A DNA stretch of 64,000 bases from Roseomonas sp. OT10 (GTDB lineage Bacteria > Pseudomonadota > Alphaproteobacteria > Acetobacterales > Acetobacteraceae): NCBI RefSeq assembly GCF_020991085.1, contig NZ_CP087719.1, forward strand, positions 868,001 through 932,000. Reading direction: 5' to 3'. The position numbers and the translations under genes are program-made. Under the pieces are notes generated by a model that was given only the letters and a program-made list of their open reading frames with translations, was not told where the DNA came from and ran no database searches. Of the stretch, positions 24,673-50,277 are shown in pieces; within the stretch, counting starts at the first letter, position 1; each line of letters starts with the position of its first letter.

Positions 24673-24933
24673 CGAGGAGCCATGCTCCTCGGCGGGTAGG
24701 GCCTCCGCTCGCGCTGACGCCTCTGATGTTTCTTTCAGAGTCCCGCCTGTCCGCATTCCGTCAGGGTTCCGCCCGCAGGCTGACGTCTACCGGAAGCACC
24801 AAACTCCCAGCGGGGACCGGGGCCCGCTTGTGGCCCCGGCAGGGGAGGGTCTGGGAGGGGACGGCGTCCCCTCCCGGTCCGACGCCGGAGCACGATAGAA
24901 CGACAGGTCAGGCCATCCCGCCGTTGGTATGGG
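24673..24933 (+). repeat. Dispersed hairpin element, copy A (left-truncated)
   Basis: Matches the right 260 bp of the element described for 32676-33097. It begins inside the CGCCGAGGAGC hairpin (stem remnants 24673-24680 and 24684-24691) and keeps the CGTCAG/CTGACG stem (24760-24786), the CCGGGGCC/GGCCCCGG stem (24818-24840) and the GGGAGGGGAC/GTCCCCTCCC stem (24854-24876). The right terminal repeat (CATCCCGCCGTTGGTAT) is intact. It abuts the LysR remnant, so the junction marks an insertion or deletion event. Confidence 0.85.
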
Positions 24934-25257
24934 CCGCGACGCGCGCCGGGCCGGGTCGCTCCAGGGGGTGCCGTGGCGTTCGTGGGGCGATGCCTCGCGG
25001 GTGGCGGGGGGCTTCGCCGGGTCGTCCGGCCGCAGCGCCGTGGCGCCGGGCCACGGGGCGACCCCGGCGTCGCAGAGCAGGGCCTGGCGTCGCAGGGCAG
25101 GAGGCCCGGCGCGAATTTTGCCTCGCATCGTCCATTCGGAGGGTGCCGGCCAGCGGCGGGGGGTCCAGAACCACTCCTCGGCAGGACGCCGCGCGTCCGC
25201 GGCACGCCATTCCTGAAGGAGCCATGGACCGGCAGCGCCGGCCTGCATGGATTCATC
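24934..25257. other. Non-coding or decayed stretch, no gene supported
   Basis: Several overlapping open frames exist on both strands but none shows recognisable domains, a ribosome site or convincing codon structure. It lies between repeat copy A and the AT-rich promoter of the exopolysaccharide operon and may contain further gene remnants. Confidence 0.5.
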
Positions 25258-25308
25258 GTCTCAAATTCATGCCGCAAAATTAATTCAATCCATATTCGTT
25301 AACATTTC

Positions 25309-25337
25309 TTGACGAATGGCACGCTGCTCGTTACGAA
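25309..25337 (+). promoter_or_regulatory. Sigma-70-like promoter of the exopolysaccharide operon
   Basis: TTGACG (25309-25314) and TACGAA (25332-25337) are 17 bases apart, in a locally AT-rich stretch (25260-25310) that is rare in this genome. The downstream sugar-transferase ATG is 40 bases beyond. Confidence 0.5.
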
Positions 25338-25376
25338 GCTCGAACCTTTGCACAGACGTCGCAAGGAGTTCGGACC

Positions 25377-26078
25377 ATGGCTCAGTGGATGCCTGCCCAG
25401 AAGCAAGGCTTCGACCTGCTGATCGTGCTGACGGCCGCGGTCTTCGCGATCCCCGTCCTCGCCATCGCCGCGCTGCTGATCCTGGCGCTGGAGGGCCGGC
25501 CGGTCCTCTACGTCTCGCGACGACGCGTCTATCGTGACATCACCATGCCGGTGGCGAAGTTCCGGACCATGCGGCGCAACGCCGACCGCCTGATCAACCG
25601 TGACACGGTGCCGGTGGCGGGCGTGCGGTTCCTCAACACGCCCAGCGATTCCCCCGTCTATACCCCCATCGGGCGCTGGATCGAGCGGCTGATGCTGACG
25701 GAGATGCCGCAGCTCTGCTACGTGCTGCTGGGCAGGATGAGCCTCGTCGGCAACCGGCCGCTGCCGGAGAACGTCATCGCCTCGCTGCGCGAGGAGTACC
25801 CCGATGCCGAGACGCGCTTCCTGACCCCCGCGGGCCTGACCGGCCCGGTGCAGCTGATCGGCCGCGACCACATCTCCGACCGCGACCGCCTGATGCTGGA
25901 GACGACCTATTGCCACGTGGTGGAGCATGCCTATTCGCCCCTCCTGGACCTGCGCATCCTGGTCGGCACCGTGCTGGTCGGGCTGGTGCCGGGCTACCGC
26001 TTCACCCCGGAGCAGGTGATGGACCTGCTGCTGAGCCATGCCCGGCCGCGCCCGCATGCCGCGGCGGGCCTGATCTGA
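25377..26078 (+). CDS. Sugar transferase (undecaprenyl-phosphate hexose-1-phosphate transferase-like)
   Basis: 233 residues. One N-terminal membrane helix (about 11-36), then KFRTMRRNAD, ERLMLTEMPQLCYVLLGRMSLVGNRPLP and the C-terminal SPLLDLRILVGTV, the pattern of monotopic initiating sugar transferases. It would load the first sugar phosphate onto the lipid carrier for exopolysaccharide. The usual D-E-L-P-Q is here TEMPQ. AAGGAG at 25363-25368 supports the ATG. First gene of a four-gene operon with a Wza-like protein, but no flippase or polymerase is nearby. Confidence 0.88.
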   Translation: MAQWMPAQKQGFDLLIVLTAAVFAIPVLAIAALLILALEGRPVLYVSRRRVYRDITMPVAKFRTMRRNADRLINRDTVPVAGVRFLNTPSDSPVYTPIGRWIERLMLTEMPQLCYVLLGRMSLVGNRPLPENVIASLREEYPDAETRFLTPAGLTGPVQLIGRDHISDRDRLMLETTYCHVVEHAYSPLLDLRILVGTVLVGLVPGYRFTPEQVMDLLLSHARPRPHAAAGLI

Positions 26079-26092
26079 CCCCGCGGACGGCC

Positions 26093-27343
26093 ATGGCGGC
26101 CGGGCGCCGGCGGCACCGGACGGGCAGGGGGGGCCGCACGGCCTTCCTTGCCCTTCTGCTTGCCGGTTCCCTCGTCGCCGGGTCCCCGTTCGCTGGTTCG
26201 CTGGTCGCCGCGCCGGCCCGGGCGGAGACGCCGGACTTCCTGCTCGGCCCGGGCGACCGCGTCGCCGTCTCGGTCTTCCGCCGCCCGGATCTCTCGGGCG
26301 AGTTCCGCATCCTGCCGGGCGGGACCCTGTCCCTGCCCTTCCTCGGCAGCCTGCCCGCTTCCGGCCTGCCCCTCTCCGCGCTGCGCGACGCCATCCAGGC
26401 GCGGCTGAAGGAGGATGCCTTCCTGCTCGACCCGCGCGTCACGCTCGACCTGGTCGAGGCGCGGCCGGTCTTCGTCGCGGGCGACGTGCGCCGGCCCGGC
26501 AGCTATCCCTTCCAGTTCGGCATGACGGTGCTGCACGCGATCACCGCGGCCGGCGGGCCGCGCGCCGTGGATACGGAGGAGCTGGGCGCGCAGATCGAGA
26601 TCGGCAACCTGCGCGAGAAGCTGCGGCAGGCGCAGCAGGGGATCGGCCTCGCCCTGATCCGGCGCGAGCGGCTGCAGGCGGAACGCGACGGCGCCGCGGA
26701 TTTCACCGCCCCCGACACGCGGCGCTACCTCTCCGAGGAGAAGGCGGCGGAGGTGGTGGCGAGCGAGCGGCGCATGATGGCGCAGCGCGACGAGGTGATC
26801 CGCACGCAGAAGGCGATGATCGCCGACCAGACGGCGCTCTACCGCGCCGAGATCCAGGCGCTGACCGAGCAGGCGGAATCGAAGCAGCGCGAGGGCGATC
26901 TGGTGCTGGAGGAGACGCGCTACGCACAGAACCTGCTGCGCCAGGGGCTGACGCCGCGCACCCCCCGCATCAACGAGCTGCAGCGCCTGTCCATCCAGCT
27001 GGAGAGCGACCGCCGCCAGATCGCCGCCCAGATCGCCCGCGCCCGGCAGGAGATCGTGCGCCTGGAGCAGTCCGCGAACGGGCTGGAGCAGCAGCGCCAG
27101 ATCGAGGTGACGGGCTGGCTGCGCGACAACGCGGATCTGCTCAACGGCCTGACCGTCACGCTGGAGGAGAGCCACGCCTCCCTGACCCGCGTCGGCGAGG
27201 CGCTGCCGGCGCCGGGCGGCGCGCGCGACGCTGCCGACCGCTTCGTCATCCTGCGCCAGTCCGGCGGCGGGACGGAGCGGATCGCCGCCCGCGCGGACAC
27301 GCCGCTGCGGCCGGGCGACCTGGTCGAGACCGCGGCGCGTTGA
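26093..27343 (+). CDS. Polysaccharide export protein (Wza/OPX-like) with long coiled coil
   Basis: 416 residues. Signal peptide about 1-43 (basic start, AFLALLLAGSLVAG, cut near APARAE). The Poly_export motif LGPGDRVAVSVFRRPDLSGEFRILPGG follows, then an SLBB-like VFVAGDVRRPGSYPFQFGMTVLHAITAAGG. From about residue 165 to 350 the sequence is a glutamine- and arginine-rich helical coiled coil, an arrangement seen in OPX proteins lacking the outer-membrane helix barrel. No lipobox cysteine is visible. It likely couples the export channel to the periplasm; 14 bases after the sugar transferase. Confidence 0.87.
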   Translation: MAAGRRRHRTGRGGRTAFLALLLAGSLVAGSPFAGSLVAAPARAETPDFLLGPGDRVAVSVFRRPDLSGEFRILPGGTLSLPFLGSLPASGLPLSALRDAIQARLKEDAFLLDPRVTLDLVEARPVFVAGDVRRPGSYPFQFGMTVLHAITAAGGPRAVDTEELGAQIEIGNLREKLRQAQQGIGLALIRRERLQAERDGAADFTAPDTRRYLSEEKAAEVVASERRMMAQRDEVIRTQKAMIADQTALYRAEIQALTEQAESKQREGDLVLEETRYAQNLLRQGLTPRTPRINELQRLSIQLESDRRQIAAQIARARQEIVRLEQSANGLEQQRQIEVTGWLRDNADLLNGLTVTLEESHASLTRVGEALPAPGGARDAADRFVILRQSGGGTERIAARADTPLRPGDLVETAAR

Positions 27344-27374
27344 CGGGCGCGCCGGGCGGAGGCGGTATGGTGCC

Positions 27375-28499
27375 ATGACCGCCCGGACCCGCGCCCTGGC
27401 CCTGTCGCTGGCCCTGCTGCCCCCGGCGGCGCTGCCCCCGGCCCTCTGGCCCGCGACCGCCCTGGCGGCCGAGCCGCAATGCCGCTTCCCCGGCCCCTGG
27501 CAGCGGGTGGAGGTGATGCGCACGCTGGCCAACGGGCCGCTCAGCCCGCTGCGCATCGCCGCCGATCCCTCCGTGCTGCACGAGGGCGGCCGCTACCGGC
27601 TGTGGTTCACCAATGCCGACAGCCGGCAGCGCACCGGCATCGCCTATGCCGAGAGCGCGAACGGGCTGACCTGGCGCATCTGGAAGAAGGCCTCCGCGCC
27701 GGACCGGGTGATGGACCTGGTGCTGGCGCCGCCGGCCGATGGCTGGGACGCGCCGGGGATCGAGACGGCGAACGTGCTGCGCACGCCCGAAGGCGGCTAC
27801 CGCCTGTACTATTCCGGCAACCACCGGCCGCAGGGCAGCATCACCTACGCCATCGGCATGGCGGAATCGCCGGACGGCATCACCTGGACCCGGCGTTCCC
27901 AGCCCGTGCTGGAGGCGCAGCAGGACTGGGAGAAGCCGCTCTGCGGTAATCCCGCCGATCCCGCCACCTGCCGCATGGGCGGGGTGCTGGAGCCCAGCGT
28001 GCTCTACGACCCCGCTGCGCGGCTCTACCGCATGTGGTATGTCGGGCTCGGCGAGCCGCGCGGCTCCTTCCGCACCTACCGCATCGGCCACGCCACCTCG
28101 CCGGACGGCATCGCCTGGACGCGCCGCCCCGCGCCCGTCCTGACCCTGGGCGGCAAGGGCGCCTGGGACGAGATGTGGACCACGCATGTGAACGTGGTCG
28201 CGGATCCGAAGGCGGGCTTCCACATGTTCTACTTCGGCAGCGCCCCCGCCGATTACCGGGACGGCGTCGAGATCCAGCGCGGGGCCATCGGCCATGCCTG
28301 GAGCGCCGACGGCATCGCCTGGCAGCGCAACCCGGCCAACCCCATCCTGTCGCCGCGCCCCGGCCAGCCGGATGCCTGGTCGCTGGGCGGGCCGCATGCG
28401 CTGATCGAGGACGGGCGCGCGCGCCTGTGGTACTTCGCCAGCCCGAGCAGCGGCCTGGAATCGCAGATCGTGCTGGCCGAGGCACCCTGCGGCCCATGA
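27375..28499 (+). CDS. Exported glycoside-hydrolase-like beta-propeller protein
   Basis: 374 residues. Signal peptide ends near ALAAE (about residue 35). Repeated blade motifs such as ADPSVLHEGGRYRLWF, SPDGITWTRR, EPSVLYDPAARLYRMWYVG and SADGIAWQRNPANPIL match the five-bladed propeller of GH32/43/62-related proteins. The acidic residues at the start of blades suggest a glycan-binding or cleaving role, perhaps trimming the polymer made by this operon. Two cysteine pairs may form disulfides. Exact activity unknown. Confidence 0.75.
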   Translation: MTARTRALALSLALLPPAALPPALWPATALAAEPQCRFPGPWQRVEVMRTLANGPLSPLRIAADPSVLHEGGRYRLWFTNADSRQRTGIAYAESANGLTWRIWKKASAPDRVMDLVLAPPADGWDAPGIETANVLRTPEGGYRLYYSGNHRPQGSITYAIGMAESPDGITWTRRSQPVLEAQQDWEKPLCGNPADPATCRMGGVLEPSVLYDPAARLYRMWYVGLGEPRGSFRTYRIGHATSPDGIAWTRRPAPVLTLGGKGAWDEMWTTHVNVVADPKAGFHMFYFGSAPADYRDGVEIQRGAIGHAWSADGIAWQRNPANPILSPRPGQPDAWSLGGPHALIEDGRARLWYFASPSSGLESQIVLAEAPCGP

Positions 28500-28534
28500 T
28501 GCCGTGCCGCCCGGCATGACGCGGCACGGCTGAC

Positions 28535-29581
28535 GTGGCGGCGCTGCGCCCCCTGTTGCTGCGCCTGCTCGCCGGGCTGCGGCTCGATGCGCTGGCGCGG
28601 CCGCTGCATGGCGGCGCGGGCGCGGTGCTGATGTTCCACCGGGTGCAGCCGGACGATCCCACGCTGACCTTCGGGCCCAACCGCCGGAACAGCGTCACGC
28701 CCGGGCTGTTCTGCCGCCTGCTGGATGCGCTGGCGGCGGCAGGGATCGCCGCCGTCACGCTGGAGGAGGCGGCCGCGCGCCTGGCCGCGCCGCGGCCGGG
28801 GCGCTTCGTCTGCCTGACCTTCGACGACGGCTACCGCGACAACCACGACATCCTGCTGCCGATCCTGGAGGCCCGGCGCGTGCCCGCGATCGTCTATGTC
28901 GCGCCGGGGCTGGTCGACGGCACCGCGCCGCTGTGGTGGTACGGGCTCGACCAGGCCATCGCGCGGGAGGGGGCGCTGCGCCTGCCGCTCGACGGCGCCG
29001 CCGAGTTGCCCGCGGCGGAGGGGCGCGCAAAGCACGCCGCCTATGCCCGCGCCGCCGCCGCCATGCTGCGCGCCCGGCCGGATGCCGTCGCCGCCGTGTC
29101 GACCACGCTGGCGGAGCGCTACGGCGTGGACTTCGCTGCCCTGGCCCGCCGGCACATGATGGGCTGGGACATGGTGCGCCGCCTCGCCGCCTCGCCCTGG
29201 GTGACGATCGGCGCGCACACCCTGTCGCATCCCAGCCTCGCCACCCTGGACGAGGCGGCGGCGCTGGCCGAGATGGGCGGCAGCCGCGAGCGGCTGGAGG
29301 CGGAGACCGGACTGCCGGTGCGCCACTTCGCCTACCCCTTCGGCACCCCCGTGACGACCGGCCCGCGGGAGGCCCGGCTGGCCCAGGCCCTCGGCTTCCG
29401 CACCGCCGTCACCACCCATCCGGGCAACCTCTTCCCGGCGCATCTCGGGCAGCCCTGCGTCTGGCCGCGCCACGGCATCGGGCCGGAGGACGGGCCCGAG
29501 GCGGTGCGCGTCAAGCTCAGCGGCCTGGCGAACGCCCTGCGCCGCCCGCTGCGGCGCGTGGTGACGGCGCCGCTGGGGTGA
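28535..29581 (+). CDS. Polysaccharide deacetylase (NodB domain)
   Basis: 348 residues. VLMFHRV near residue 35, catalytic TFDDGYRDN at about 95-103, metal-binding HTLSHPSL (about 229-236) and FAYPFGTP. This carbohydrate esterase family 4 domain removes N- or O-acetyl groups from a glycan. GTG start with weak upstream purines. It closes the exopolysaccharide operon; a run of ten C and the palindrome CCCCGCGGGG follow its stop before the convergent monooxygenase gene. Confidence 0.88.
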   Translation: MAALRPLLLRLLAGLRLDALARPLHGGAGAVLMFHRVQPDDPTLTFGPNRRNSVTPGLFCRLLDALAAAGIAAVTLEEAAARLAAPRPGRFVCLTFDDGYRDNHDILLPILEARRVPAIVYVAPGLVDGTAPLWWYGLDQAIAREGALRLPLDGAAELPAAEGRAKHAAYARAAAAMLRARPDAVAAVSTTLAERYGVDFAALARRHMMGWDMVRRLAASPWVTIGAHTLSHPSLATLDEAAALAEMGGSRERLEAETGLPVRHFAYPFGTPVTTGPREARLAQALGFRTAVTTHPGNLFPAHLGQPCVWPRHGIGPEDGPEAVRVKLSGLANALRRPLRRVVTAPLG

Positions 29582-29609
29582 GGCGGCGCCCCCCCCCCGC
29601 GGGGTCGGG

Positions 29610-30920
29610 TCAGAAGGCCAGCAGATTGTCGCGGAACTGGTCGTGGGCGTAGTGGCGACGGGCCAGGCCGCGGCGTTGCAGGGCGGGCACCAGCCCGTCG
29701 GTGATCTCCGCCACGCTGCGGCGGGTGGTGTCGGCCAGGGTGAGCAGGAAGCCGTCGCCGCCGACCTCCTCCATCGCCGCGCCCATCCGCTCCGCCACCT
29801 GGTCCGGGGTGCCGACCAGCTCGATGGAGCCGGTGCGGGCATAGTCCACCAGCAGCTCGCGCAGGGTGCGGCCGCGGTTCTTGCCGATGAACTGCTCCAG
29901 GCTCTGCTGGTGGCCGTTGGTCCGCAGCTCGCCCAGCGGCCGGTCCAGGTCGAACTCCGCGAAGTCGATGTTCGTCACCTTGCTCAGGTGGGCGAGGCGG
30001 ATGTGCGGGTTGTCCGCGTGGAACTCGGCGTTGCGGCGCTGCCGGGCCAGCGCCTCCTCCTCGGTCGCGCCGAGGATGGGCGAGACGAGGAACAGCACCT
30101 TGCAATGGTCGGGATTGCGGCCGAACCGCGCCATGCGCTCGCGCACGTCGTCGCGATACGCCTTCATCGCCTTCGCCCCCTTGGTGCTGGCGACGATGGT
30201 GTCCGCCCATTTCGCGGCGAAGGCGCGGCCGGCGGGCGAGCCGCCCGCCTGGGCGATCACCGGCTGGCCCTGGGGGCAGGGGCCGGAGTTCAGCGGGCCG
30301 CGGCAGCGGAACCAGCGGCCCTCGAAGTTCACCGCATGCACCTTGCTCGGGTCGATCAGCGCGCCGCCCTCGATGCCGCCGGTGATGGCGCCGGGTTCCC
30401 AGGAACCCCAGAGCTGGCGGACGAGGTCCATGTACTCCTCCGCCATCTCGTAGCGCAGGTCGTGCTCCGGCATCCCCGGCAGGCCGAAGTTCTGCGCGGC
30501 ATAGTCGGAGGAGCCGGTGACGGCGTTCCAGCCGATCCGCCCGGCCGAGACCTGGTCCAGCGTGCCGATCAGCCGTGCGAGCAGGTAGGGCGGGTAGGCA
30601 AAGGTGCCCAGCGTGGGAACGATGCCGATGCGCGAGGTCTCCCGCGCCAGCAGCCCGGCCACCACCGCCGGGTCCTGGCGCGGCACGGCGATGCCGTTCT
30701 CCAGGTACACGTCGCGGGAGGAGCCGTAGCTTTCCCCGACATAGGAGGAATCCTCGAGCAGCACGTAGTCGAAGCCGGCGCGCTCCAGGTTGCGCGTCAT
30801 CTCGACGAAGAACTCCGGCCGCATCCAGGTCTCGGCCACGTTGCCGGTCCATTCCTCGCCCCAGGACTGGATGCTGGAGCCCTGCAGGAACCAGCCGAGG
30901 TGGAAGCGCTTGTCGGTCAT
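29610..30920 (-). CDS. LLM-class flavin-dependent monooxygenase (NtaA/SnaA/DszA-like)
   Basis: 436 residues. FHLGWFLQGSSIQSWGEEWTG, FDYVLLEDSSYVG, GRIGWNAVTGSSDYAAQNFG and IAQAGGSPAGRAFAAKWADTIV are hallmarks of the NtaA/DszA branch of bacterial luciferase-like enzymes, which use FMNH2 and oxygen to cleave C-N or C-S bonds. GGAG lies just 5' of the ATG. It is divergent from the peptide-type receptor at 31098, a common arrangement when the receptor imports the monooxygenase substrate. No flavin reductase is nearby. Confidence 0.9.
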   Translation of the reverse strand: MTDKRFHLGWFLQGSSIQSWGEEWTGNVAETWMRPEFFVEMTRNLERAGFDYVLLEDSSYVGESYGSSRDVYLENGIAVPRQDPAVVAGLLARETSRIGIVPTLGTFAYPPYLLARLIGTLDQVSAGRIGWNAVTGSSDYAAQNFGLPGMPEHDLRYEMAEEYMDLVRQLWGSWEPGAITGGIEGGALIDPSKVHAVNFEGRWFRCRGPLNSGPCPQGQPVIAQAGGSPAGRAFAAKWADTIVASTKGAKAMKAYRDDVRERMARFGRNPDHCKVLFLVSPILGATEEEALARQRRNAEFHADNPHIRLAHLSKVTNIDFAEFDLDRPLGELRTNGHQQSLEQFIGKNRGRTLRELLVDYARTGSIELVGTPDQVAERMGAAMEEVGGDGFLLTLADTTRRSVAEITDGLVPALQRRGLARRHYAHDQFRDNLLAF

Positions 30921-31097: not shown

Positions 31098-32678
31098 ATG
31101 CGCCGCCTCTCGCTCTGCTCCACCCTCGCCGCGGCGGGCCTGGCCCTCGGCCTCGGCGCCGCCCCGGCCCCGGCCGAGACGGTGCTGCGCGCGGTGCTGA
31201 TCAACGAGCTGACCAGCATCGACCCCGTGGTCTCCACCGCCGCCTTCGTGCGCAACCACGGCTTCTTCATCTACGACCAGCTCTTCGCGCTCGACAGCAA
31301 GGGCGTGGCACAGCCCCAGATGGTGGGCAGCCACAGCGTGTCCGACGACCGCATGACCTGGCGCTTCACGCTGCGCGACGGGCTCGCCTTCCATGACGGC
31401 GCGCCGGTGCGGGCGGCGGATGCCGTGGCCTCGATCCGGCGCTGGGCGCAGCGCGACGTGGTCGGGCGGGCCCTGGCCGCGGCGACCGCCTCGCTGGAGG
31501 CGGTGGACGACAAGACCTTCGAGCTGAAGCTCTCCCGCCCCTTCGCCCTGGTGCTGGAGGCGCTGGCGCGCCCCACCGGCAGCGCGCTGTTCGTCATGCC
31601 CGAGCGGGTGGCGCAGACCCCCGCCACCACGGCCATCACCGACACCACCGGCTCCGGCCCCTTCGTCTTCCCGCGCGACCGCTGGCGCATCGGCGACCGC
31701 GCCGTCTACCAGCGCAACCCGACCTACCGGCCGCGTCCCGAGGCGCCGGACGGGCTCGCCGGCGGCAAGGTGGTGACGCTGGACCGGGTGGAATGGCTGG
31801 CCATGCCCGATGCCGCCGTGGCGGTGAACGCGCTGACCACGGGGGAGATCGACTTCATCGAGCAGCCGCCGCCCGACCTGGTCCCGCAGCTGGAGCGCAA
31901 CCGGCAACTGCGCGTCGCCCCGATCAACCCCATCGGCTACATGGTCTGGCTGCGGATCAACCACGCCCAGGCACCCTTCAACGACCCCCGCGCGCGGCAG
32001 GCGCTGCTGCATCTGCTGAACCAGCAGGAGGTGCTGGAGGGGATGGGCGTGCGCGCCGCGGAGCAGGTGCCCTACTGCCCCGCCTTCTTCATGTGCGGCA
32101 CGCCGCTGGAGACGGCGGCCGGCGCGCGCGGCCTGCGCCAGCCGGACGTCGCCCAGGCGCGGCGGCTGCTGCAGGAGGCGGGGTATGACGGGCGCAAGGT
32201 CGTCTTCCTGAACGCCACCGACAACCCGTTGAACAATGCCGCCACGCTGGTCATGGCGGAGGCCTTCGGCAAGGGCGGGCTGGTCATGGACGTGCCCTCG
32301 ATGGACTGGGGCACGCTGACGCAGCGGCGCAACCGGCGCGAGCCGCAGGCGGAGGGCGGCTGGAACCTGTTCGTCACCATCGCCAACGCCTTCGACGCGG
32401 AGAACCCGCTCTCCAACCTCTACCTCGCCAGCCCCTGCGAGGGTGGCCTGGCCGGCTGGCCCTGCGACGCGGAGCTGGAGCGGCTGCGCCGGTCCTGGTG
32501 GGAGGAATCCGACCCCGCCAAGCGGCGCGCCCTGCTCGACCAGGTGCATGCGCGCGCCTACGAGGTGCTGCCCTACATCAATGCCGGGCAGTTCCGCACC
32601 AACGCCGCTTGGCGCTCCAACATCACCGGCATCCGCCCGACCACCGTGCCAGTCTTCTGGGGGGTGGAGAAGAACTGA
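31098..32678 (+). CDS. ABC transporter solute-binding protein, family 5
   Basis: 526 residues. Signal peptide about 1-27 (LSLCSTLAAAGLALGLGAAPAPAE). Family hallmarks include LRDGLAFHDGAPVRAADAVASIRRW and HAQAPFNDPRARQALLHLLNQQ. Two mid-protein cysteines (PYCPAFFMCG) could pair. GGGAG at 31086-31090 supports the ATG. It is an orphan receptor: no permease or ATPase follows. Its TGA is the first three bases of repeat copy B, so the element supplies the stop codon. Confidence 0.9.
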   Translation: MRRLSLCSTLAAAGLALGLGAAPAPAETVLRAVLINELTSIDPVVSTAAFVRNHGFFIYDQLFALDSKGVAQPQMVGSHSVSDDRMTWRFTLRDGLAFHDGAPVRAADAVASIRRWAQRDVVGRALAAATASLEAVDDKTFELKLSRPFALVLEALARPTGSALFVMPERVAQTPATTAITDTTGSGPFVFPRDRWRIGDRAVYQRNPTYRPRPEAPDGLAGGKVVTLDRVEWLAMPDAAVAVNALTTGEIDFIEQPPPDLVPQLERNRQLRVAPINPIGYMVWLRINHAQAPFNDPRARQALLHLLNQQEVLEGMGVRAAEQVPYCPAFFMCGTPLETAAGARGLRQPDVAQARRLLQEAGYDGRKVVFLNATDNPLNNAATLVMAEAFGKGGLVMDVPSMDWGTLTQRRNRREPQAEGGWNLFVTIANAFDAENPLSNLYLASPCEGGLAGWPCDAELERLRRSWWEESDPAKRRALLDQVHARAYEVLPYINAGQFRTNAAWRSNITGIRPTTVPVFWGVEKN

Positions 32679-33097
32679 TACGGACGGCGGGATGCGCTGA
32701 TCCGTGCCGGCACGAGGTGCGCCCGTGGCCCGGGGGCAAGGCTCCGCCTCGCCCCCGTACCCCCACTCCGCCAGGACCCTGCGGGCCCTGGACCCGATGG
32801 GCGCTGCCGCGGGACAGCCTGCGACGGGGTCGAGGCGCCGAGGAGCATGGCTCCTCGGCGGGTATGGCCGCAGCATTCGCTGACGCCTTCAAACCTATTC
32901 TGGAGTCCCGCCTGTCCGCGCGCTGTCAGGGTTCAGACCGGAGGCTGACACCCCCCGAAAGCACCAAACTCCCAGCGGGAACCGGGGCCCGCTTGTGGCC
33001 CCGGCAGGGGAGGGTCTGGGAGGGGACGCCGTCCCCTCCCGGTCCGCCGCAGGACCACCACAGCACGACGGATCAGGTCAGCCCGCCCTGGGTATCA
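32676..33097 (+). repeat. Dispersed multi-hairpin element with terminal inverted repeats, copy B (full)
   Basis: 422 bp bounded by TGATACGGACGGCGGGATG on the left and its imperfect complement ending GTATCA. In order it holds GGGGGC.../...GCCCCC (32732-32756), CCAGGACCC/GGGCCCTGG (32771-32791), a perfect 11 bp stem CGCCGAGGAGC/GCTCCTCGGCG with loop ATG (32836-32860), GTCAG/CTGAC, CCGGGGCC/GGCCCCGG and a perfect 10 bp stem GGGAGGGGAC/GTCCCCTCCC with loop GCC (33018-33040). No protein is encoded. It sits between convergent genes. Copies A, C and D share the same order in the same orientation. Confidence 0.88.
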
Positions 33098-40923: not shown

Positions 40924-42042
40924 ATGTCCCAGCCCCCCACCGTGCTCCAGGTGCTGCCCGCCCTCGTCTCCGGCGGCGTCGAGCGCGGCACCGTGGAGAT
41001 CGCCGAGGCCCTGGCCGGCGCCGGCTTCCGCGCCCTGGTCGCCTCGGCCGGCGGGCCGCTGGTGGCGGAGCTGGAGGCAGTGGGCGCCCGCCACGCCACC
41101 CTGCCGCTGGACCGCAAGTCTCCCCTGGCCCTCGCCGCCAATGCCCGCGCGCTGGAACGGCTGATCCGGGCGGAGGGGGTGGACATCGTCCATGCCCGCT
41201 CCCGCTTCCCCGCCTGGTCGGCGCTGGCGGCGGCACGACGCACGGGCGCGCGCTTCGTCACCACCTTCCACGGCGTCTACAGCGAGAGCTTCCCGGGCAA
41301 GCGGCTCTACAACTCCGTCATGGTGCGCGGCGACCGGGTGATCGCGATCAGCGAGCACGTCGCCGGCATCATCCACGCCCGCTACGGCACCGGTCCCGAC
41401 CGTCTGCGCATCATCCCGCGCGGGGCGGACGTGACCCGCTTCGACCCCGCGGCGGTCCCCTCGGACCGGGTCGCCGCCCTGCGCGCGGCCTGGGCCGTGC
41501 CGGAGGGGCGGCCGGTGGTCCTGCTGCCCGGCCGTCTCACCCGCTGGAAGGGGCAGGCGGTGCTGCTGCGCGCCCTGGCACGGCTGCTGCCCGACCCGCC
41601 CTTCGGGCTGCTGGTGGGCGAGGGGGGGATGCGCGCCGAACTGGAGGCGGAGGCGCGCCGGCTCGGCCTCGCCGGCCACGTCGCCCTGCCGGGGCTGACG
41701 CGGGACATGCCGGCGGCGCTGCTGCTGGCGGATCTGGTGGTCCATGCCAGCACCGCGGCCGAGCCCTTCGGCCGCACCGTGGTCGAGGCCCAGGCGATGC
41801 GCCGGCCCGTCATCGCCGCCGATCTGGGCGCCCCGCGCGAGACGGTGGAGGAGGGGGTAACCGGCTGGCGCGTCCCGCCGGACGACCCGGAGGCGCTGGC
41901 GGCGGCCATCCGCCGCGCCCTGGCCCTGCCGCCCGAGGCCCGCGCCGCCCTGGGCATCCGCGCCCGGGCCGCCGTGCTGGCGCGCTACACCACCGCCGCG
42001 ATGCAGGCCGCGACGCTGAACGTGTACCGGGAGCTGCTGTGA
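40924..42042 (+). CDS. Glycosyltransferase family 4
   Basis: 372 residues. VLQVLPALVSGGVERGTVEIAEAL at the start, RSRFPAWSA and FVTTFHGVYSESFPGKRLYN acceptor region, then LLPGRLTRWKGQAVLLRAL and EPFGRTVVEAQAMRRPVIAAD donor motif (about 280-300). It overlaps the GT9 gene by GTGA. The pair looks like an LPS-core or related glycan module and is distinct from the similar pair at 20-22 kb. Confidence 0.92.
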   Translation: MSQPPTVLQVLPALVSGGVERGTVEIAEALAGAGFRALVASAGGPLVAELEAVGARHATLPLDRKSPLALAANARALERLIRAEGVDIVHARSRFPAWSALAAARRTGARFVTTFHGVYSESFPGKRLYNSVMVRGDRVIAISEHVAGIIHARYGTGPDRLRIIPRGADVTRFDPAAVPSDRVAALRAAWAVPEGRPVVLLPGRLTRWKGQAVLLRALARLLPDPPFGLLVGEGGMRAELEAEARRLGLAGHVALPGLTRDMPAALLLADLVVHASTAAEPFGRTVVEAQAMRRPVIAADLGAPRETVEEGVTGWRVPPDDPEALAAAIRRALALPPEARAALGIRARAAVLARYTTAAMQAATLNVYRELL

Positions 42043-43004
42043 GCGACGCCGGGCAGATCCTCGTCATCAAGCTGGCCGCGCTGGGCGACATGGTGCAGGC
42101 CTTCGGTCCCTTCGCGGCCATCCGCGCCCACCATCCCGGGGCGCGCATCACCCTGCTGACCACCCCGCCCTTCGCCGAGCTGGCCCGCCGCTCGCCCTGG
42201 TTCGACGAGGTCTGGACGGAGGGCCGCCCGCCCGCGGGGGACTGGCGGGCGCTGTGGCGGCTGGCGCGGCGGCTGCGGGCCGGGCGCTTCGACCGGGTCT
42301 ACGACCTCCAGACCTCCGGGCGGTCCTCGCGCTATCGCTGGCTGGTCGGGGGCCGGGCGGAATGGTCGGGCATCGCCCGCGGCGCCAGCCACCCGCATGC
42401 CAACCCGGCGCGGGACACGATGCACACGCTGGAGCGCCAGCGCGAGCAGCTGGAGATGGCGGGGCTGCGCGACTTCCCGGAGCCGGACCTCTCCTGGCTC
42501 GCCGCCGACCTGTCACGCCTGGGCCTGCCGGACCGCTTCGCCCTGCTGGTCCCCGGCGCCAGCCCCGGCCGCCCGGCCAAGCGCTGGCCGCACTTCCCGG
42601 CGCTCGCCGCCCGGCTGCCGCTGCCCGTCGCCGTGGCCGGCGGACCGGCGGAGGCGCCGCTGGCCGAGGCGATCCGCGCCGCCCGCCCCGATGCGCTGGA
42701 CCTGACGGGGAAGACCTCGCTTTTCGAGCTGGGCGCGCTGGCCCGCCGCGCCGCCCTGGCGGTGGGCAACGACACCGGCCCAACCCATGTGGCCGCGGCG
42801 GTGGGCTGCCCGACGCTGGCCCTGTTCGGCGCCGACAGCGACCCGGCGCTCTCGGCGCCCCGGGGGCCGCGCGCGGCCGTGCTGCGACGCCTGCCGCTCG
42901 AGGCGCTGGAGCCGGAGGCGGTGGTCGCGGCGCTGCAAGCAATGGGAGCGCTGGCAGAGGGCGGAGAGGCCGGGGGGATGCCGCCCCTGCCAGGCTCCGT
43001 CTGA
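42039..43004 (+). CDS. Glycosyltransferase family 9 (heptosyltransferase-like)
   Basis: 321 residues. ILVIKLAALGDMVQAFGPFAAIR is the GT9 N-terminus; LLVPGASPGRPAKRWPHFPALAARL and AVGNDTGPTHVAAAVGCPTLALFG are the donor-binding motifs. It would add a heptose or related sugar. GTG start overlaps the upstream stop. Its TGA (43002-43004) is the first three bases of repeat copy C, so the element supplies the stop codon. Confidence 0.9.
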   Translation: MSDAGQILVIKLAALGDMVQAFGPFAAIRAHHPGARITLLTTPPFAELARRSPWFDEVWTEGRPPAGDWRALWRLARRLRAGRFDRVYDLQTSGRSSRYRWLVGGRAEWSGIARGASHPHANPARDTMHTLERQREQLEMAGLRDFPEPDLSWLAADLSRLGLPDRFALLVPGASPGRPAKRWPHFPALAARLPLPVAVAGGPAEAPLAEAIRAARPDALDLTGKTSLFELGALARRAALAVGNDTGPTHVAAAVGCPTLALFGADSDPALSAPRGPRAAVLRRLPLEALEPEAVVAALQAMGALAEGGEAGGMPPLPGSV

Positions 43005-43424
43005 TACGGACGGCAGGATGCCCCGATCCGTGCCGGCGTGGGGTGCGTCCGTGGCCCGGGGGCAAGGCTCTGCCTTCCCCCCGTACCCCCCATCCGCCAG
43101 GACCCTGCGGGCCCTGGACCCGATCAGCGCTGCCGCGGGACAGCCGGACATGGGGTCACGGCGCCGAGGAGCCATGCTCCTCGGCGAGTACGGCCGCAGC
43201 CCGCGCTGACGCCTTCTGAAGCCTTTTCAGAGTCCCGCCTGTCCGCGCTCCGTCAGGGTTCAGCCCAGAGGCTGACGCCCACCGGAAGCACCAGACTCCC
43301 AGCGGGGACCGGGGCCCGCTTGTGGCCCCGGCAGGGGAGGGTCTAGGAGGGGACGGCGTCCCCTCCCGGTCCGACGCCGGAACATGACGGCACGACAGGC
43401 CAGGTCATCCCGCCGTTGGCATGA
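43002..43424 (+). repeat. Dispersed multi-hairpin element, copy C (full)
   Basis: 423 bp, same plan as copy B. Left end TGATACGGACGGCAGGATG; right end CATCCCGCCGTTGGCATGA. The 11 bp stem is at 43162-43186 with loop CAT, and the last stem GGAGGGGAC/GTCCCCTCC at 43346-43366 with loop GGC. It separates the GT9 gene from the thrS leader on the same strand, so it may end transcription before thrS. Confidence 0.88.
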
Positions 43425-45595: not shown

Positions 45596-45645
45596 GCCGC
45601 GCACCATAAAACGCAAAACGATCGAAACCAAAACAGGAGCAGACC

Positions 45646-46185
45646 CTGGCCCGAGGCCCTATCCCGAACCAGCTTCCCACCCGCGACGGCCCTCGCGTGA
45701 ACGAGGAGATCCGCGTCCCGCAGGTCCGCCTGATCGACCAGGACGGCGAGATGCTGGGCGTCATGAGCGCCCGCGACGCCCTCCTGCGCGCCTATGACGC
45801 CGGCATGGACCTTCTGGAGATCAGCCCGAACGCGGTCCCGCCGGTGTGCAAGATCACGGATTTCGGGAAGTTCAAGTACGAGCAGCAGAAGAAGGCCAAC
45901 GAGGCCCGCAAGAAGCAGAAGGTCGTCGAGATCAAGGAGATCAAGGTCCGTCCGAACATCGACGACCACGACTACGAGGTGAAGATGCGGGCCGCGAAGT
46001 CTTTCATCGAGGAGGGCGACAAGGTGAAGGTCACCCTTCGCTTCCGCGGCCGCGAGATGGCGCACCAGGATCTCGGCGCCAAGGTGCTGGAGCGCATCCG
46101 CACCGAGCTGAGCGAGATCGTGAAGGTGGAATCCATGCCCCGGCTGGAGAACCGCCAGATGGTCATGGTGCTGGCGCCGAAGTAA
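45646..46185 (+). CDS. infC: Translation initiation factor IF-3, non-canonical CTG start
   Basis: 179 residues. N domain [28 protein letters not shown], linker [19 protein letters not shown] domain [18 protein letters not shown] to the end: full-length IF-3. The conserved alphaproteobacterial leader [16 protein letters not shown] is encoded upstream of the first GTG (45697) and traces back to CTG at 45646, with AGGAG at 45635-45639 six bases before it; no ATG, GTG or TTG is available there. Rare-start infC genes are autoregulated because IF-3 rejects its own start codon. Shares an operon with thrS. Confidence 0.93.
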
Positions 46186-46264
46186 CGGCCGCCCCGCCTG
46201 CGCGACGCCCGTGCCGGGCCCGGCCACCGCCGGGACCCGGTGCCGTCGTCTTCAGGCTCCGTCT

Positions 46265-47074
46265 TCAGGCAACGGCCTCGCCCCGGCCCAGCCGCAGCAG
46301 GGCGTGGAAGGGGCAGCCGCCGGACTTGCGACGCTTGCGCACGGTGGCGGCGTAGCGGCCGGGGCGGTGCTCCGCCTCCTGGCTGGGGGCGACCACGTCG
46401 CGCATCCAGCCCTCCCATTCCTCCGCCGTCAGGGCCGCCAGCCCCGCCGTGGTCTCCGACCGGTCCAGCACCGGCTCGGCATAGGCCGCCTGGGGCACCG
46501 GCACGGCCTGGAGGAAGGGCATCCCCCGCCGGAAGCTCACCGGCTCCCCGGTGCGGGCGATCCGGAAGTTGGCGAAGAGCGGACCGGCCCAGAGATCGGT
46601 CTCCACCACCCCCTCGAAGGCCACCGCCCCCGCCACGCCGGGCATGTTCGCGGGCGCGCGCAGCCACAGGCTCCAGCCCGGGGCGGTGCGGGCGAGCAGC
46701 CCCGTCCAGACCTGCACCATGCCCGCTTCCGGCAGGGCGGTGAGGAAGGGGGGCGAGTAGCCCTGCGCCGCCTCGGGCGCCGCCGCGTCGAAGGCCGCGG
46801 CGAAGTGGGGGAACTGCGCCGCCTCCAGCGGCAGCCAGCCCTCGAAGGCCTCCGCGCAGGCCCACCAGACCCGCTCGCCGTCGAAGAGCAGGTCGAAATC
46901 CGTCGGCGGGGAGAGCCACCAGCCGAACCCCGTGGCGGTCGTCACTGCGTCGCACCAGCGGGCGGCGCGCACCGGCAGCATGCCCAGCGCGTCGCGCCCG
47001 GCCCGCTCGGGCAGGGGCATGCCGGGGATCACGGCGCGGAAGCGGATGGTGGGGCTTTCGGTCATGGCCGTCAT
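46265..47074 (-). CDS. DUF6065-like protein downstream of repeat peptide
   Basis: 269 residues. IRFRAVIPGMPLPERAGRDALG, WCDAVTTATGFGWWLSPPTDFDLLFDGERVWW and the central PANMPGVAGAVAFEGVVETDLW resemble, from memory, the uncharacterised DUF6065 family. No catalytic motif can be assigned; the C-terminus ends with RKRRKSGGCPFHALLRLGRG. Start is ATG 47074 or 47065; a GTG at 47092 has no ribosome site. It lies 68 bases after the repeat-peptide gene with a 13 bp perfect hairpin between, so it is probably transcribed at lower level from the same promoter. Confidence 0.75.
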   Translation of the reverse strand: MTAMTESPTIRFRAVIPGMPLPERAGRDALGMLPVRAARWCDAVTTATGFGWWLSPPTDFDLLFDGERVWWACAEAFEGWLPLEAAQFPHFAAAFDAAAPEAAQGYSPPFLTALPEAGMVQVWTGLLARTAPGWSLWLRAPANMPGVAGAVAFEGVVETDLWAGPLFANFRIARTGEPVSFRRGMPFLQAVPVPQAAYAEPVLDRSETTAGLAALTAEEWEGWMRDVVAPSQEAEHRPGRYAATVRKRRKSGGCPFHALLRLGRGEAVA

Positions 47075-47104
47075 CGTGTCCGTGTCTCTCACCGATCGCG
47101 GGGT

Positions 47105-47137
47105 GGCCGGGCGCGGGAGGGGGCCCCGCGCCCGGCC
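47105..47137 (-). terminator. Strong hairpin between repeat peptide and DUF6065 gene
   Basis: GGCCGGGCGCGGG (47105-47117) and CCCGCGCCCGGCC (47125-47137) form a perfect 13 bp stem with a 7-base loop, within the 68 bp between the two genes. Likely a partial terminator or mRNA-stabilising end that raises peptide mRNA over the downstream enzyme gene. Confidence 0.7.
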
Positions 47138-47142
47138 CGGGC

Positions 47143-47343
47143 TCAGCCGCGGCGCAGCCCGGCGCCGACGCGGACCTTGCCCGCATCCGCCACGGCGGCG
47201 GGGCGCAGCTTCAGCCCGGCACCCACGCGGACCTTGCCGCTGTCGGCCACGGCGGCCGGGGTGGCGGGGCGGCGCAGACCGGCGCCGACGCGGACCCGGC
47301 CCTGGTCGGCGATGGCGGGGAGGGAGGCGAGCGGGAAGGTCAT
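47143..47343 (-). CDS. Small protein of three VRVGAGL repeats
   Basis: 66 residues. After MTFPLASLPA come three near-identical units: IADQGRVRVGAGLRR, VADSGKVRVGAGLKL and VADAGKVRVGAGLRR, joined by short proline/alanine linkers, ending in G. GGAG 6 bases before ATG 47343 chooses this start over ATG 47355. No signal peptide, no cysteine. The layout, short leader, repeated core, hairpin and partner gene, is that of a ribosomally made peptide precursor with several core copies, but a small structural protein is also possible. I do not recognise the family. Confidence 0.72.
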   Translation of the reverse strand: MTFPLASLPAIADQGRVRVGAGLRRPATPAAVADSGKVRVGAGLKLRPAAVADAGKVRVGAGLRRG

Positions 47344-47418
47344 CGGAATCTCCATGTCAGGAGCGGCCCGGGGGGTGCCGCCCGTGGTATCGGACGCCGG
47401 GGAGCGGCCGATGACGGG

Positions 47419-47448
47419 ACGATAATCCTAGGAATTTAGAGCCGTCAA
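47419..47448 (-). promoter_or_regulatory. Candidate promoter for the repeat-peptide operon
   Basis: On the minus strand TTGACG (47448-47443) and TATCGT (47424-47419) are 18 bases apart within an AT-rich 90 bp stretch (47420-47480). The repeat-peptide start is about 75 bases downstream. The same stretch must hold the opposing promoter for the gene at 47576. Confidence 0.45.
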
Positions 47449-47575
47449 CGGGAATATTGACCTATTAATCCGCCTTTTGTCCTTGACGGCGTTTTCACGC
47501 GCGGCGCATCCCTTCTCACGCGCGGATTCACGGCGCCGGGACGAAGCTGTGGCCACCGACAGGGAAACCTCCGCG

Positions 47576-47851
47576 ATGGCCGGCCCGATCTCCGACGATC
47601 ACGACACGTTGCTGATGGAGGTGCTGGTCGCCGCCCGCCGGCTGCTGGCCTTGCAGTCGCGCCTGGATTCCGGCGCGCGAGCCGCCGGCTGCCTGGCCGA
47701 GGCCATCGACCGCGACTTCCTCCTCTTCGACCTGCACGACGCGGCGCGCGACCTGCGCGAGGCGGTGGAGGCCGCGGAGGCGATCACCAGCGCCCGCTCC
47801 CTGGGCGGGCTGCTCCCGAAGACCCGGCCGGTGCAAGCCATGAGCGGCTGA
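47576..47851 (+). CDS. Small helical protein of unknown function
   Basis: 91 residues, mostly alpha-helical by eye (DHDTLLMEVLVAARRLLALQSRL, LHDAARDLREAVEAAEAI). No cysteine pair or known motif. AGGGA at 47561-47565 precedes ATG 47576; GTG 47549 or TTG 47477 would extend it. Divergent from the repeat-peptide operon, followed by 148 bp without a gene. Confidence 0.55.
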   Translation: MAGPISDDHDTLLMEVLVAARRLLALQSRLDSGARAAGCLAEAIDRDFLLFDLHDAARDLREAVEAAEAITSARSLGGLLPKTRPVQAMSG

Positions 47852-47999
47852 GGCGCCGGGGTCCGGCGCGCCGCCCCCGGAACGGGCGCGGCCACCGCCG
47901 GTCGGCGCGGCCGCTGCCGCGCGACCGGGTTGGGCGCCGGGCGGAACAATACAGGGACCGTCTTCCTTGGCGGCGGCGCTGCGCTAGGCTGCGCCGCGC

Positions 48000-49826
48000 A
48001 TGTGCGTGTTCGTTCCTTCCCTGCGGTTGCGCCTCACCCTGCTCGGCGCCACCGATGCCTGGAGCCTGACCAGCGAACGGGTCCTGCCCCGCGGCCGCAA
48101 GACGCGGGCGCTGCTGGCGATCCTGGCCCTGGCGAACGGCCAGCCGGTCTCCCGGCTGCGCCTGGCTTCGCTCCTCTGGTCCCGCAGCGCGGTCGAGCAG
48201 GCCCGCGGCAGCCTGCGCCAGGCGCTGCATGAGCTGGCCAGCGCCCTGGCACCGGCCGGGCCCGGGCTGCTGAGCGCCGGGCGGGATGCTGTCACGCTGG
48301 ACGCGTCCCAGGCCTGGGTGGATGCGCTGGAAGGGCTGCGCGCGACCCCCGATCGGCCGGAGGCGCTGGAGCTGCTGGGGGCGCCGCTGCTGCCCGACCT
48401 GGACGGGCTCTCCCCCGCGCTCGATTCGTGGCTGGCCGACGAGCGGTCCCGCCTGCAGGCGCAGGCCAGGGCCCTGGCCGGCCGGATCCTCCAGGCCGGC
48501 CCTCCCGCCGCGCAGGCCGCCGCTGCCGCCTGCCTGCGTCGCCTGGAGCCGGCGTTGGCGGTCGTCCCGGGCGGCGTGCCGCAAGGGCCGCCGTCCCGCC
48601 CCGCCGCCCCGCGCCGCGGCATCCGCCTGGGCGTGCCACCGCTGGCCGTCTCCGGCGGGACGGAGGACGCGCATCTGGCGGCGGCGCTGGCCGAGGAGAT
48701 CACCGCCGGGCTGGCGCGCTTCCGCTGGCTCTTCCTGGCCGATCCCGCCACCCTCGCCGCCAGCCCCGACCCGGTCGCCATGGCCGGCCGCATGGGGCTG
48801 GATGCCGTGCTGCTCGGCTCCGTGCAGCGGGACGGGGCGCGGGTGCGGGTGGCACTTCGCCTGGTCGAGCCGGAATCGGGCGACCTGCCGGCCGGCGCGG
48901 CCGGGCCGATGCAGCGCGCCGTGCTGTGGTCCGCCCGCTTCGACCGCGAGGGCGAGGACCGCTTCACGCTGCAGGACGAGATCGCCGCGGCCGTGGTCGC
49001 CCGGCTCGACCCGGAGCTGCTGCTGATGGAGGGCCGCCGTGCGCTGTCCCGGCCGCCCGCCGATGCCTCGGCGCACGACCTGCTGCTGCGGGCGATCCCC
49101 GCGCTGCACGCGCTGGAGCGCAACGCCTTCGAGGAGGCGGGCCGTTCGCTGGAGGAGGCGATCCGGCGCGACCCCGACTATGCCGCGGCGCATGCCTGGG
49201 CGGCCTGCTGGCACATCCTGCAGGTGGGCCAGGGCTGGGCCCCGGATCACGAGGCGGCCCTGGCCCGGGCGGAGGCGCTGGCCGCCCGCGCCACCGCGCT
49301 GGACCCGGCCGACGCGTTGGCGCTGACCGTGCGCGGCCATGTCCTGGCCTATCTGCACCACCGGCCGGAGGAAGGCTGCGCCCTGCACGAGCGCGCGCTG
49401 GCGCTGAACCCGAACCTCGCCATGGCCTGGGTCTTCTCCGGCCTGGCCCACAGCTATTGCGGGCGGCACGAGGCCGCACTGGACCGGCTCGCCCGCTACG
49501 CCCGCCTCGCGCCGCTGCACCCGCTGGCCTTCTTCTTCGACGCGGCGCAACTGGTGCCGCTGATGCTGCTGGGCCGGCACGAGGCGGTGATCGAGGCGGC
49601 GCGGGCCGTCGTGGCCCTGCACCCCGCCTTCTCCTTCCCGCTGCGCCCCTGGCTGGCGTCGCTGGGCTGGCTGGACCGGCCGGAGGCGGCGGAGGTGCGG
49701 ACCCGGCTGCTGGCGCTGGAACCGGGACTGACCATCCGTGCCGCCCTGCGCCGTGCCCCGCTGCGCGAGGCGGACCGCGCGCTCTACGCCGAGGGGCTGC
49801 GCCGGGGCGGGCTGCCGGAAGGCTGA
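48000..49826 (+). CDS. BTAD/winged-helix transcriptional regulator with TPR repeats
   Basis: 608 residues. N-terminal OmpR-like winged helix (LTLLGATDAWSL, LLAILALANGQPVSRLRLASLLWS, RGSLRQALHELASAL), a bacterial transcriptional-activator domain to about 180, a TolB-like middle (IRLGVPPLAVSGG, VLLGSVQRDGARVRVALRLVE), then TPR-type repeats (AAAHAWAACWHIL, LALNPNLAMAWVFSGLAHSY) to the end. This SARP-like soluble one-component architecture often regulates surface or transport genes. Neighbouring targets are not evident; repeat copy D follows 51 bases later. Confidence 0.85.
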   Translation: MCVFVPSLRLRLTLLGATDAWSLTSERVLPRGRKTRALLAILALANGQPVSRLRLASLLWSRSAVEQARGSLRQALHELASALAPAGPGLLSAGRDAVTLDASQAWVDALEGLRATPDRPEALELLGAPLLPDLDGLSPALDSWLADERSRLQAQARALAGRILQAGPPAAQAAAAACLRRLEPALAVVPGGVPQGPPSRPAAPRRGIRLGVPPLAVSGGTEDAHLAAALAEEITAGLARFRWLFLADPATLAASPDPVAMAGRMGLDAVLLGSVQRDGARVRVALRLVEPESGDLPAGAAGPMQRAVLWSARFDREGEDRFTLQDEIAAAVVARLDPELLLMEGRRALSRPPADASAHDLLLRAIPALHALERNAFEEAGRSLEEAIRRDPDYAAAHAWAACWHILQVGQGWAPDHEAALARAEALAARATALDPADALALTVRGHVLAYLHHRPEEGCALHERALALNPNLAMAWVFSGLAHSYCGRHEAALDRLARYARLAPLHPLAFFFDAAQLVPLMLLGRHEAVIEAARAVVALHPAFSFPLRPWLASLGWLDRPEAAEVRTRLLALEPGLTIRAALRRAPLREADRALYAEGLRRGGLPEG

Positions 49827-49877
49827 AACGCGCTCCGGCGAACGGCCGCGGGCGCCGTGCCGGTCCGGGCGGCCGCG

Positions 49878-50277
49878 TCATACGCGCGGCGTGAGGCCTC
49901 GATCCGTGCCGGCGTGGGGTGCGCCCGTGGCCCGGGGGCAAGGCGCTGCCTCGCCCCCGTACCCCCACTCCGCCAGGACCCTGCGGGCCCTGGACCCGAG
50001 GGGCGCTGCCGCGGGACAGTCTGCGACGGGGTCGAGGCGCCGAGGAGCCATGCTCCTCGGCGGGTACGGTGTCCGCACTTGCAGACGCCTTTGAAGCTTT
50101 ATTGGAGTCCCGCCTGTCCGCGCGCCGTCAGGGTTGAGCCCGCAGGCTGACGGCAGCCCTGTAGAGCCAATTCCCAGCGGGGACCGGGGCCCGCTTGTGG
50201 CCCCGGCAGGGGAGGGCCTGGGAGGGGACGGCGTCCCCTCCCGGTCCCCCGCCCGAACACCACGGCACGCGGTATCA
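49878..50277 (+). repeat. Dispersed multi-hairpin element, copy D (full, right end shortened)
   Basis: 400 bp. Left end TCATACGCGCGGCGTGAGG is more diverged; right end is GGTATCA after a small deletion. The 11 bp stem lies at 50038-50062 with loop CAT and the 10 bp stem at 50220-50242 with loop GGC. The last three bases TCA are the complement of the stop codon of the minus-strand Bug receptor gene. It fills the gap between convergent genes. Confidence 0.87.

Follow-up and report, generated by a model that had tools for sequence, protein, structure and literature searches.

Why would a hairpin-rich sequence with no open reading frame of its own recur four times, in one internal order and one orientation, within 64,000 nucleotides of the genome of Roseomonas sp. 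OT10? The window, by which we mean the whole stretch analysed, spans positions 868001-932000 of contig C1 in a genome of 5.69 Mb and 3 contigs. A preliminary description, made from its letters alone, had reported the four copies with this order and orientation, and all of them are present, with limits that we refine below. The explanation that we regard as fairly probable is a non-autonomous unit of ~417 bp, resembling a miniature inverted-repeat transposable element (MITE), whose cargo would be a bidirectional gene-end structure.

Abundance and gene context of the element

The preliminary description had staked its case on further copies elsewhere in the genome, and these are abundant. A 17-bp core, searched with at most 1 mismatch in the 5.69 Mb, gave 218 matches (104 forward and 114 reverse), and the reversed control gave none; a second module of 25 bp, with at most 2 mismatches, gave 216 matches in the genome, again with an empty control. 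A search with copy C of the window returned 40 long matches of 87-100% identity (40 of 373 first-look candidates were scored). By simple arithmetic (218 × ~417 bp), the total load is ~91 kb or ~1.6% of the genome, some matches being less than full copies. Contig C2 held only two weak copies in 275 of its 286 kb, and none was found in 60 of the 73 kb of contig C3, in three 20-kb control stretches of C1 or, at an E value of 1e-5, in plasmid and phage collections. Among the matches listed (the first 100 places, to 3.6 Mb), density along C1 was uneven, being high at 0.2-1.1 Mb and from 2.9 Mb and low at 1.1-2.9 Mb, which resembles the repeat deserts named for the repeats of Pseudomonas fluorescens SBW25 (PMC2718517).

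Copies of the element collect at convergent gene ends, are rare in tandem spacers and did not turn up in divergent ones. We extracted 114 non-redundant copies from the organism's own DNA (the window, sixty stretches taken by place, and short loci), of which 96 reached at least 90% of the model length. These full copies measure 402-447 bp. Any given reading frame is open in at most 18 of the 96, in agreement with the lack of coding capacity first described. A home-made gene caller, which predicted 963 genes in 1.131 Mb, allowed 97 of the 114 copies to be mapped to gene-called stretches. The 96 copies with both neighbours, which include two overlapping matches in one spacer (locus L111) that are maybe one disrupted copy, occupied 73 convergent, 23 tandem and 0 divergent spacers; the element-free spacers of the same DNA were 77 convergent, 591 tandem and 139 divergent. 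A second set of copies, fetched mostly around end-repeat matches and having one copy also in the first table (L020), gave a similar picture (18 convergent, 10 tandem, 0 divergent; n = 28). When the empty spacer was at least 100 bp long, the element occupied 25/42 convergent, 17/227 tandem and 0/117 divergent spacers, absolute values that are inflated because the surveyed stretches were picked for holding copies. As a rough estimate, about one quarter of the convergent junctions are occupied genome-wide.

Target duplication and stop codons

The element carries 16-bp inverted repeats (TACSGACGGCGGGATG) at its ends, and its terminal inverted repeats, TACGGACGGCGGGATG and TACCGACGGCGGGATG, are those expected of a MITE. 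The preliminary description had given them 19 bp: the inverted ends are real, and the outer 3 bp (TGA/TCA) are better assigned to a duplicated target, which leaves 16 bp for the repeat proper. The features in the window are the following, with copy limits given without the target duplication and with a model of 418 positions.

24669..24928, plus strand: copy A, truncated (model positions 158-417 of 418, the left 157 missing), beside a LysR gene remnant
32676..32678, plus strand: left triplet TGA of copy B, the stop codon of the SBP_bac_5 gene (31098-32678)
32679..33094, plus strand: copy B, full element; left repeat 32679-32694, right repeat 33079-33094
32732..32756, plus strand: hairpin slot HP1 of copy B, from sequence and conservation profile
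32771..32791, plus strand: hairpin slot HP2 of copy B, CCAGGACCCTGCGGGCCCTGG, from sequence and module counts
32836..32860, plus strand: hairpin slot HP3 of copy B, stem 11 bp and loop 3 bases, from sequence and pairing/covariation tests
32982..33004, plus strand: hairpin slot HP2' of copy B, stem CCGGGGCC, from sequence and slot variants
33018..33040, plus strand: hairpin slot HP1' of copy B, stem GGGAGGGGAC, from sequence and slot variants
33095..33097, plus strand: right triplet TCA of copy B, mismatched with the left TGA
43002..43004, plus strand: left triplet TGA of copy C, the stop codon of the Glyco_transf_9 gene (42039-43004)
43005..43421, plus strand: copy C, full element
43422..43424, plus strand: right target duplication TGA of copy C
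49878..49880, plus strand: left triplet TCA of copy D
49881..50274, plus strand: copy D, right end shortened (the nhmmer match reaches model position 401)
50275..50277, minus strand: right triplet of copy D, the TGA stop codon of the minus-strand TctC gene (50275-51288)

The duplication is not seen in copy B, whose left and right triplets are TGA and TCA, respectively; copy D, in spite of its shortened right end, is flanked by TCA on either side in forward letters. We read the flanking triplet as a 3-bp target duplication of the form TSA (S = C or G) in a CTSAG-like context. Among the copies whose two ends lie within 8 bases of the model ends (both-ended copies, 74 of 114), 43 have identical 3-mers on the two sides (TCA/TCA in 22, TGA/TGA in 20 and TTA/TTA in 1). 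The combination TGA/TCA occurs twice in the 74 and TCA/TGA never. TSA flanks both ends in 44 of these copies, and in 42 of the 44 the S base agrees (Fisher test; p = 2.6e-10). In the second set, 8 of 16 copies have identical 3-mers.

In most cases the triplet is a stop codon. With the home-made gene caller, a stop codon lies exactly at the start or end of the element in 43 of 58 mapped both-ended copies; a codon-bias test that needs no gene calling places 55 of the 74 both-ended copies at a stop codon, and 9 of the 16 copies in the second set are in one. The orientation of the element relative to the gene is the same in 22 cases and opposite in 21. When the target triplet is the TGA stop of the adjacent gene, this gene keeps its own stop after the insertion. 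Most transposable elements damage the sites they enter. This one appears to target TSA, a triplet that a G+C-rich genome offers without risk most often as the TGA stop codon, and the codon would be restored by the 3-bp duplication. Our searches of open-licence papers in PubMed Central brought up no report of stop-codon duplication by such an element, or of repeats of this genus.

Comparison with congeners (G-numbers; G000 is the genome studied here) supports dispersed insertion, together with the inverted ends, the duplication and the presence of ~200 copies. The dgt gene ends in LRGLD, at most 3 residues and TGA, at equal length in our genome and in G004, G012 and G003, and only in our genome does an element occupy that TGA. 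For the glycosyltransferase gene next to copy C, the element is absent at all 8 of the 14 congener orthologues that were readable; in G004, G012 and G003, the next gene is thrS, as in our genome, and it begins no more than ~80 bp downstream, and the C-terminal residues differ from those of our gene. For the SBP gene at copy B, 7 of 12 close orthologues were readable, all ending at the same motif; as judged by eye, nothing element-like follows the stop in 5 of the 7, and a different hairpin element follows it in G001 and G011. The end sequence is almost confined to this species, where it has 90 matches, versus 0-2 in each of 14 congeners.

Hairpin slots, exchange between copies and related families

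From left to right, the element comprises the inverted end TACGGACGGCGGGATG, HP1 (GGGGGCAAGGC..GCCTCGCCCCC), a linker and HP2 (CCAGGACCCTGCGGGCCCTGG); then HP3 (CGCCGAGGAGC, a 3-base loop, GCTCCTCGGCG), followed by a variable middle; and on the right HP2' (CCGGGGCC..GGCCCCGG), HP1' (GGGAGGGGAC..GTCCCCTCCC) and the inverted end CATCCCGCCGTCGGTA, the order HP2', HP1' being the mirror of HP1, HP2. The perfect 11-bp hairpin CGCCGAGGAGC announced by the preliminary description is indeed fully paired in 98 of 101 extracted own copies, in a set restricted to candidates in which 8 or more of the 11 pairs form. The perfect 10-bp hairpin GGGAGGGGAC, said to be in nearly every copy, is the commonest form of the HP1' slot, from which it is replaced by a different and longer sequence (GGGACGGGGATCGACGC...) in at least 4 of the 96 full copies. 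The 3-base loop of HP3 is CAT in 54 of the 101 own copies and its reverse complement ATG in 16, as though the hairpin had flipped; the loop TTG, found in 18, does not fit flipping.

Conservation is concentrated in the hairpins. Copies diverge by 15% on average, the best pair being 92.4% identical, and divergence ranges from 18-19% in the end repeats and 14-19% in the variable segments to 6.5% in the HP3 block (including its variable loop), 6.4% in segment 226-262, 2.2% in the HP2'-HP1' block and 1.3% in the HP1-HP2 block. Across the three stem types of HP3 (40 distinct sequences), 98.0% of the cells are paired (84.5% when shuffled), two-sided changes occupy 63 cells (17.7 when shuffled) and covariation reaches 0.386, compared with at most 0.144 when slid, all of which rests on few independent events and on sequences admitted only if 8 or more of the 11 pairs formed. 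Compensatory changes between species are present in HP3, with the stems kept. The fold predicted for the consensus is more stable than its shuffles both as RNA (z = -6.1) and as DNA (z = -3.8).

The interior of the element seems to be shared out among copies. Linkage between variable sites is near the shuffled level beyond ~20 bp, and among multi-base markers, for which some tests included few copies, 1 of 44 pairs was associated (p < 0.001), that pair lying ~15 bp apart and the next lowest p being 0.067. Weak long-range associations are few, and most of them involve sites inside the first 40 columns or join the outer ends, between which there is linkage (p = 3e-5). The two end repeats within one copy pair no better than shuffled ones (62.4% and 62.2%, respectively), so the arms diverged independently, and singleton counts did not help in separating selection from descent. 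We read this pattern as short-tract exchange between copies combined with constraint on the hairpin blocks; recurrent mutation is possible for single-base sites and unlikely for alternatives of 7-8 bases. Exchange of this kind (gene conversion) would keep reshuffling the interior. Since interior segments reassort among ~200 copies, the element offers a natural setting in which gene conversion between dispersed repeats could be measured.

Congeners hold families with a common hairpin order, different stem sequences and a similar niche. The HP2 module has 58 matches in G003, 72 in G004 and 49 in G012, and none in the remaining 11 congeners. In G012 the hairpins follow the same order, and the stems in slots HP1, HP2' and HP1' vary (50 copies examined, at least 45 rows, some from G000, and some copies without a hairpin in every slot), and the context is convergent in 15 cases, tandem in 14 and divergent in 0 (n = 29, in stretches picked for having the module). 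G001, which lacks the HP2 module, carries a separate repeat family whose hairpins are ordered alike; in spacers of at least 60 bp, a length to which the element itself contributes wherever it is present, this family occupies 7/16 convergent, 2/104 tandem and 0/48 divergent spacers (Fisher test; p = 6e-6 and 2e-5). Insertion positions shared with G012 amounted to 2/5 versus 1/9 (p = 0.5), and a one-way count gave 3/4 in stretches chosen for holding elements. In two cases an element lies downstream of one gene in both G000 and G012 (L143 with L331, and L117 with L336), and these may be either shared old insertions or hot spots.

Mobility, gene ends and rival explanations

IS5-family insertion sequences of the ISL2 and IS1031 groups generate a 3-bp TNA target duplication. 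The triplets of the present element agree with the TNA expected of a MITE derived from IS5/IS1031 (TSA 42 times, TTA once); no IS5-family element sharing the ends was seen among 30 inspected PF01609 loci. In the reading that we favour, a DDE transposase, lost or unrecognised here, would have moved the element, such an enzyme being suggested by the 3-bp duplication. The MITE side of the initial proposal has the backing of the inverted ends, the duplication, the element-free congener loci and the ~200 copies, and the one family searched (PF01609) gave no transposase with these ends that might mobilise it in trans. Twelve PF01609 matches have equal scores, 9 of them on contig C2 (286 kb), as in a burst of like insertion sequences. 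Selection would have purged the insertions that cut a transcription unit, and a cargo of five strong hairpin slots, folding alike on both strands, may end or insulate transcription arriving from either side; this would account for the sites at which insertions are tolerated as well as for the good conservation of the hairpins. If the cargo does end transcription, each insertion would be a ready-made bidirectional terminator between colliding genes, a parasite doubling as a genome part. The early suggestion of a structured RNA or bidirectional terminator gains from the kept stems, the compensatory changes in HP3 and the convergent gene ends, and it loses from the random orientation and from the lack of a T-run terminator in copies B-D.

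Several observations weigh against this reading. The 3-mers are not identical in 31 of the 74 both-ended copies, 29 of which differ variously, many by one base, and they differ in the other 8 of the 16 copies in the second set. The preference for stop codons is modest given the TSA sites that each spacer offers: 40 of 51 versus 33.6 expected (P = 0.008), in a comparison that takes the both-ended copies having TSA on one or both sides and counts the TSA sites of each reconstructed spacer. Conservation is lower at the ends than in the interior, which is not what a currently active MITE would show, and the lack of near-identical copies gives no sign of recent movement. PF01609, the sole transposase family searched for a partner with the same ends, gave 34 matches, and none of the 30 loci inspected by eye was flanked by a pair of element ends. 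In 1.526 Mb, no two ends were found at a distance of 0.5-4 kb with matching TNA; the three pairs 4.2-5.7 kb apart among the 90 genome-wide end matches are ends of separate copies. Counted by pair, HP3 shows no excess over shuffles, either in pairs with two-sided change (5 versus 4.5) or in further pair types (10 versus 9.9). A scan of copies B, C and D detected no G+C-rich hairpin with a T-run directly behind it inside them, so termination, if real, would be less canonical, or the elements would protect 3' ends.

Tail-to-tail MITE-like repeats are already known in Pseudomonas (PMC2718517). The R0, R2 and IR1_g repeats of P. fluorescens SBW25 are likewise high-copy inverted-repeat stem-loops with a tail-repeat-tail bias, termed MITE-like, and this bias was read as the least harmful location (PMC2718517). 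R0 and R2 share their ends with resident insertion sequences (PMC2718517), whereas none was found for the present element among the inspected PF01609 loci. The main text of that paper does not contain the term "target site", and its passage on these repeats reports no stop-codon duplication (PMC2718517). REP/BIME and REPIN sequences, including the CGTC REPs, are also palindromic and lie mostly between convergent or unidirectional genes, and CGTC REPs have no dedicated transposase (PMC3733652); for the present element, too, none was found among the PF01609 loci inspected. They differ in being 20-40 bp long with a GTAG or CGTC tag (PMC3733652), whereas ours is a composite of 402-447 bp with terminal inverted repeats and a 3-bp duplication. 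The CIR repeats of Caulobacter and Brucella are likewise alphaproteobacterial, intergenic and made of two inverted-repeat arms and a linker; they measure ~110 bp and contain GANTC sites, and the account drawn on here makes no mention of target duplication (PMC2229807).

The element could be a parasite that does its host genome unusually little harm, or else a natural gene-end part in wide use. The second view can be extended, as a tentative possibility, to a genus-wide class of gene-end structures with an inherited architecture and changing letters. Its members would have five hairpin slots, arranged in one order and mostly open to different perfectly paired stems. They would sit at a large share of convergent junctions, usually one each, and exchange between copies would refresh them; in this species they would have spread by stop-rebuilding insertion, so that a mobile element became a standard bidirectional terminator or insulator of the chromosome. 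A purely selfish MITE without host function, surviving where it is least harmful and keeping its hairpins for mobility or via copy-to-copy conversion, is also conceivable, if rather doubtful. It is the published explanation for the same bias of the MITE-like stem-loop repeats of SBW25 (PMC2718517), and the excess of stop codons is largely what the scarcity of TSA sites in these spacers would produce. It sits less well with two hairpin blocks that are ~10 times more conserved than the end repeats beside a variable interior diverged by 14-19%, which neither decay nor uniform conversion predicts, or with congeners that retain the hairpin order with other sequences. Double occupancy is also rare, with one spacer (L111) among 96 copies, compared with ~14% of the occupied spacers expected, as a rough estimate, at 25% occupancy.

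A transposase that actively recognises stop codons or translation-termination regions, beyond TSA, seems unlikely. It would account for the exact coincidence with a stop codon in 52 of the 74 both-ended copies mapped in the two sets and for the 29 spacers offering both kinds of TSA site, in which the stop was used 20 times versus 12.6 expected; the excess is small after counting the available TSA sites, and a CTSAG-like palindrome context needs no stop codon. Strictly stop-codon-specific insertion is weakened by the same per-spacer count. A dispersed family of trans-acting structured RNAs is very improbable: the strong RNA fold predicted for the consensus speaks for it, and the DNA fold is likewise more stable than shuffles, both strands folding alike because the stems pair perfectly. 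Moreover, Rfam gave no match for the element (element regions of the window; 8 loci at E values up to 0.1), and the random orientation to genes argues against a strand-specific RNA. The poorest candidate of all is a REP/REPIN-type repeat moved by RAYT, a Y1 tyrosine transposase. The inverted hairpin modules flanking the interior do resemble a REP doublet, but the element is ~417 bp long and has a target duplication, and HUH enzymes of the RAYT kind are not known to make one. Y1_Tnp (PF01797) was found in 0 of the 15 genomes of the genus, with 5 of 14 control genomes positive, so RAYT was set aside.

Two minor observations concern the window. A minus-strand fragment of a LysR substrate-binding domain (PF03466, an open reading frame of 190 aa at 24098-24670 of the window) abuts the truncated left side of copy A, and a single deletion may account both for the missing start of the LysR gene and for the loss of the left 157 element positions. 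Finally, Rfam reported a 5_ureB_sRNA match (125 bits) at 13421-13710 of the window, opposite a minus-strand open reading frame (12150-13862); the match may reflect conserved urease coding sequence rather than an antisense RNA.

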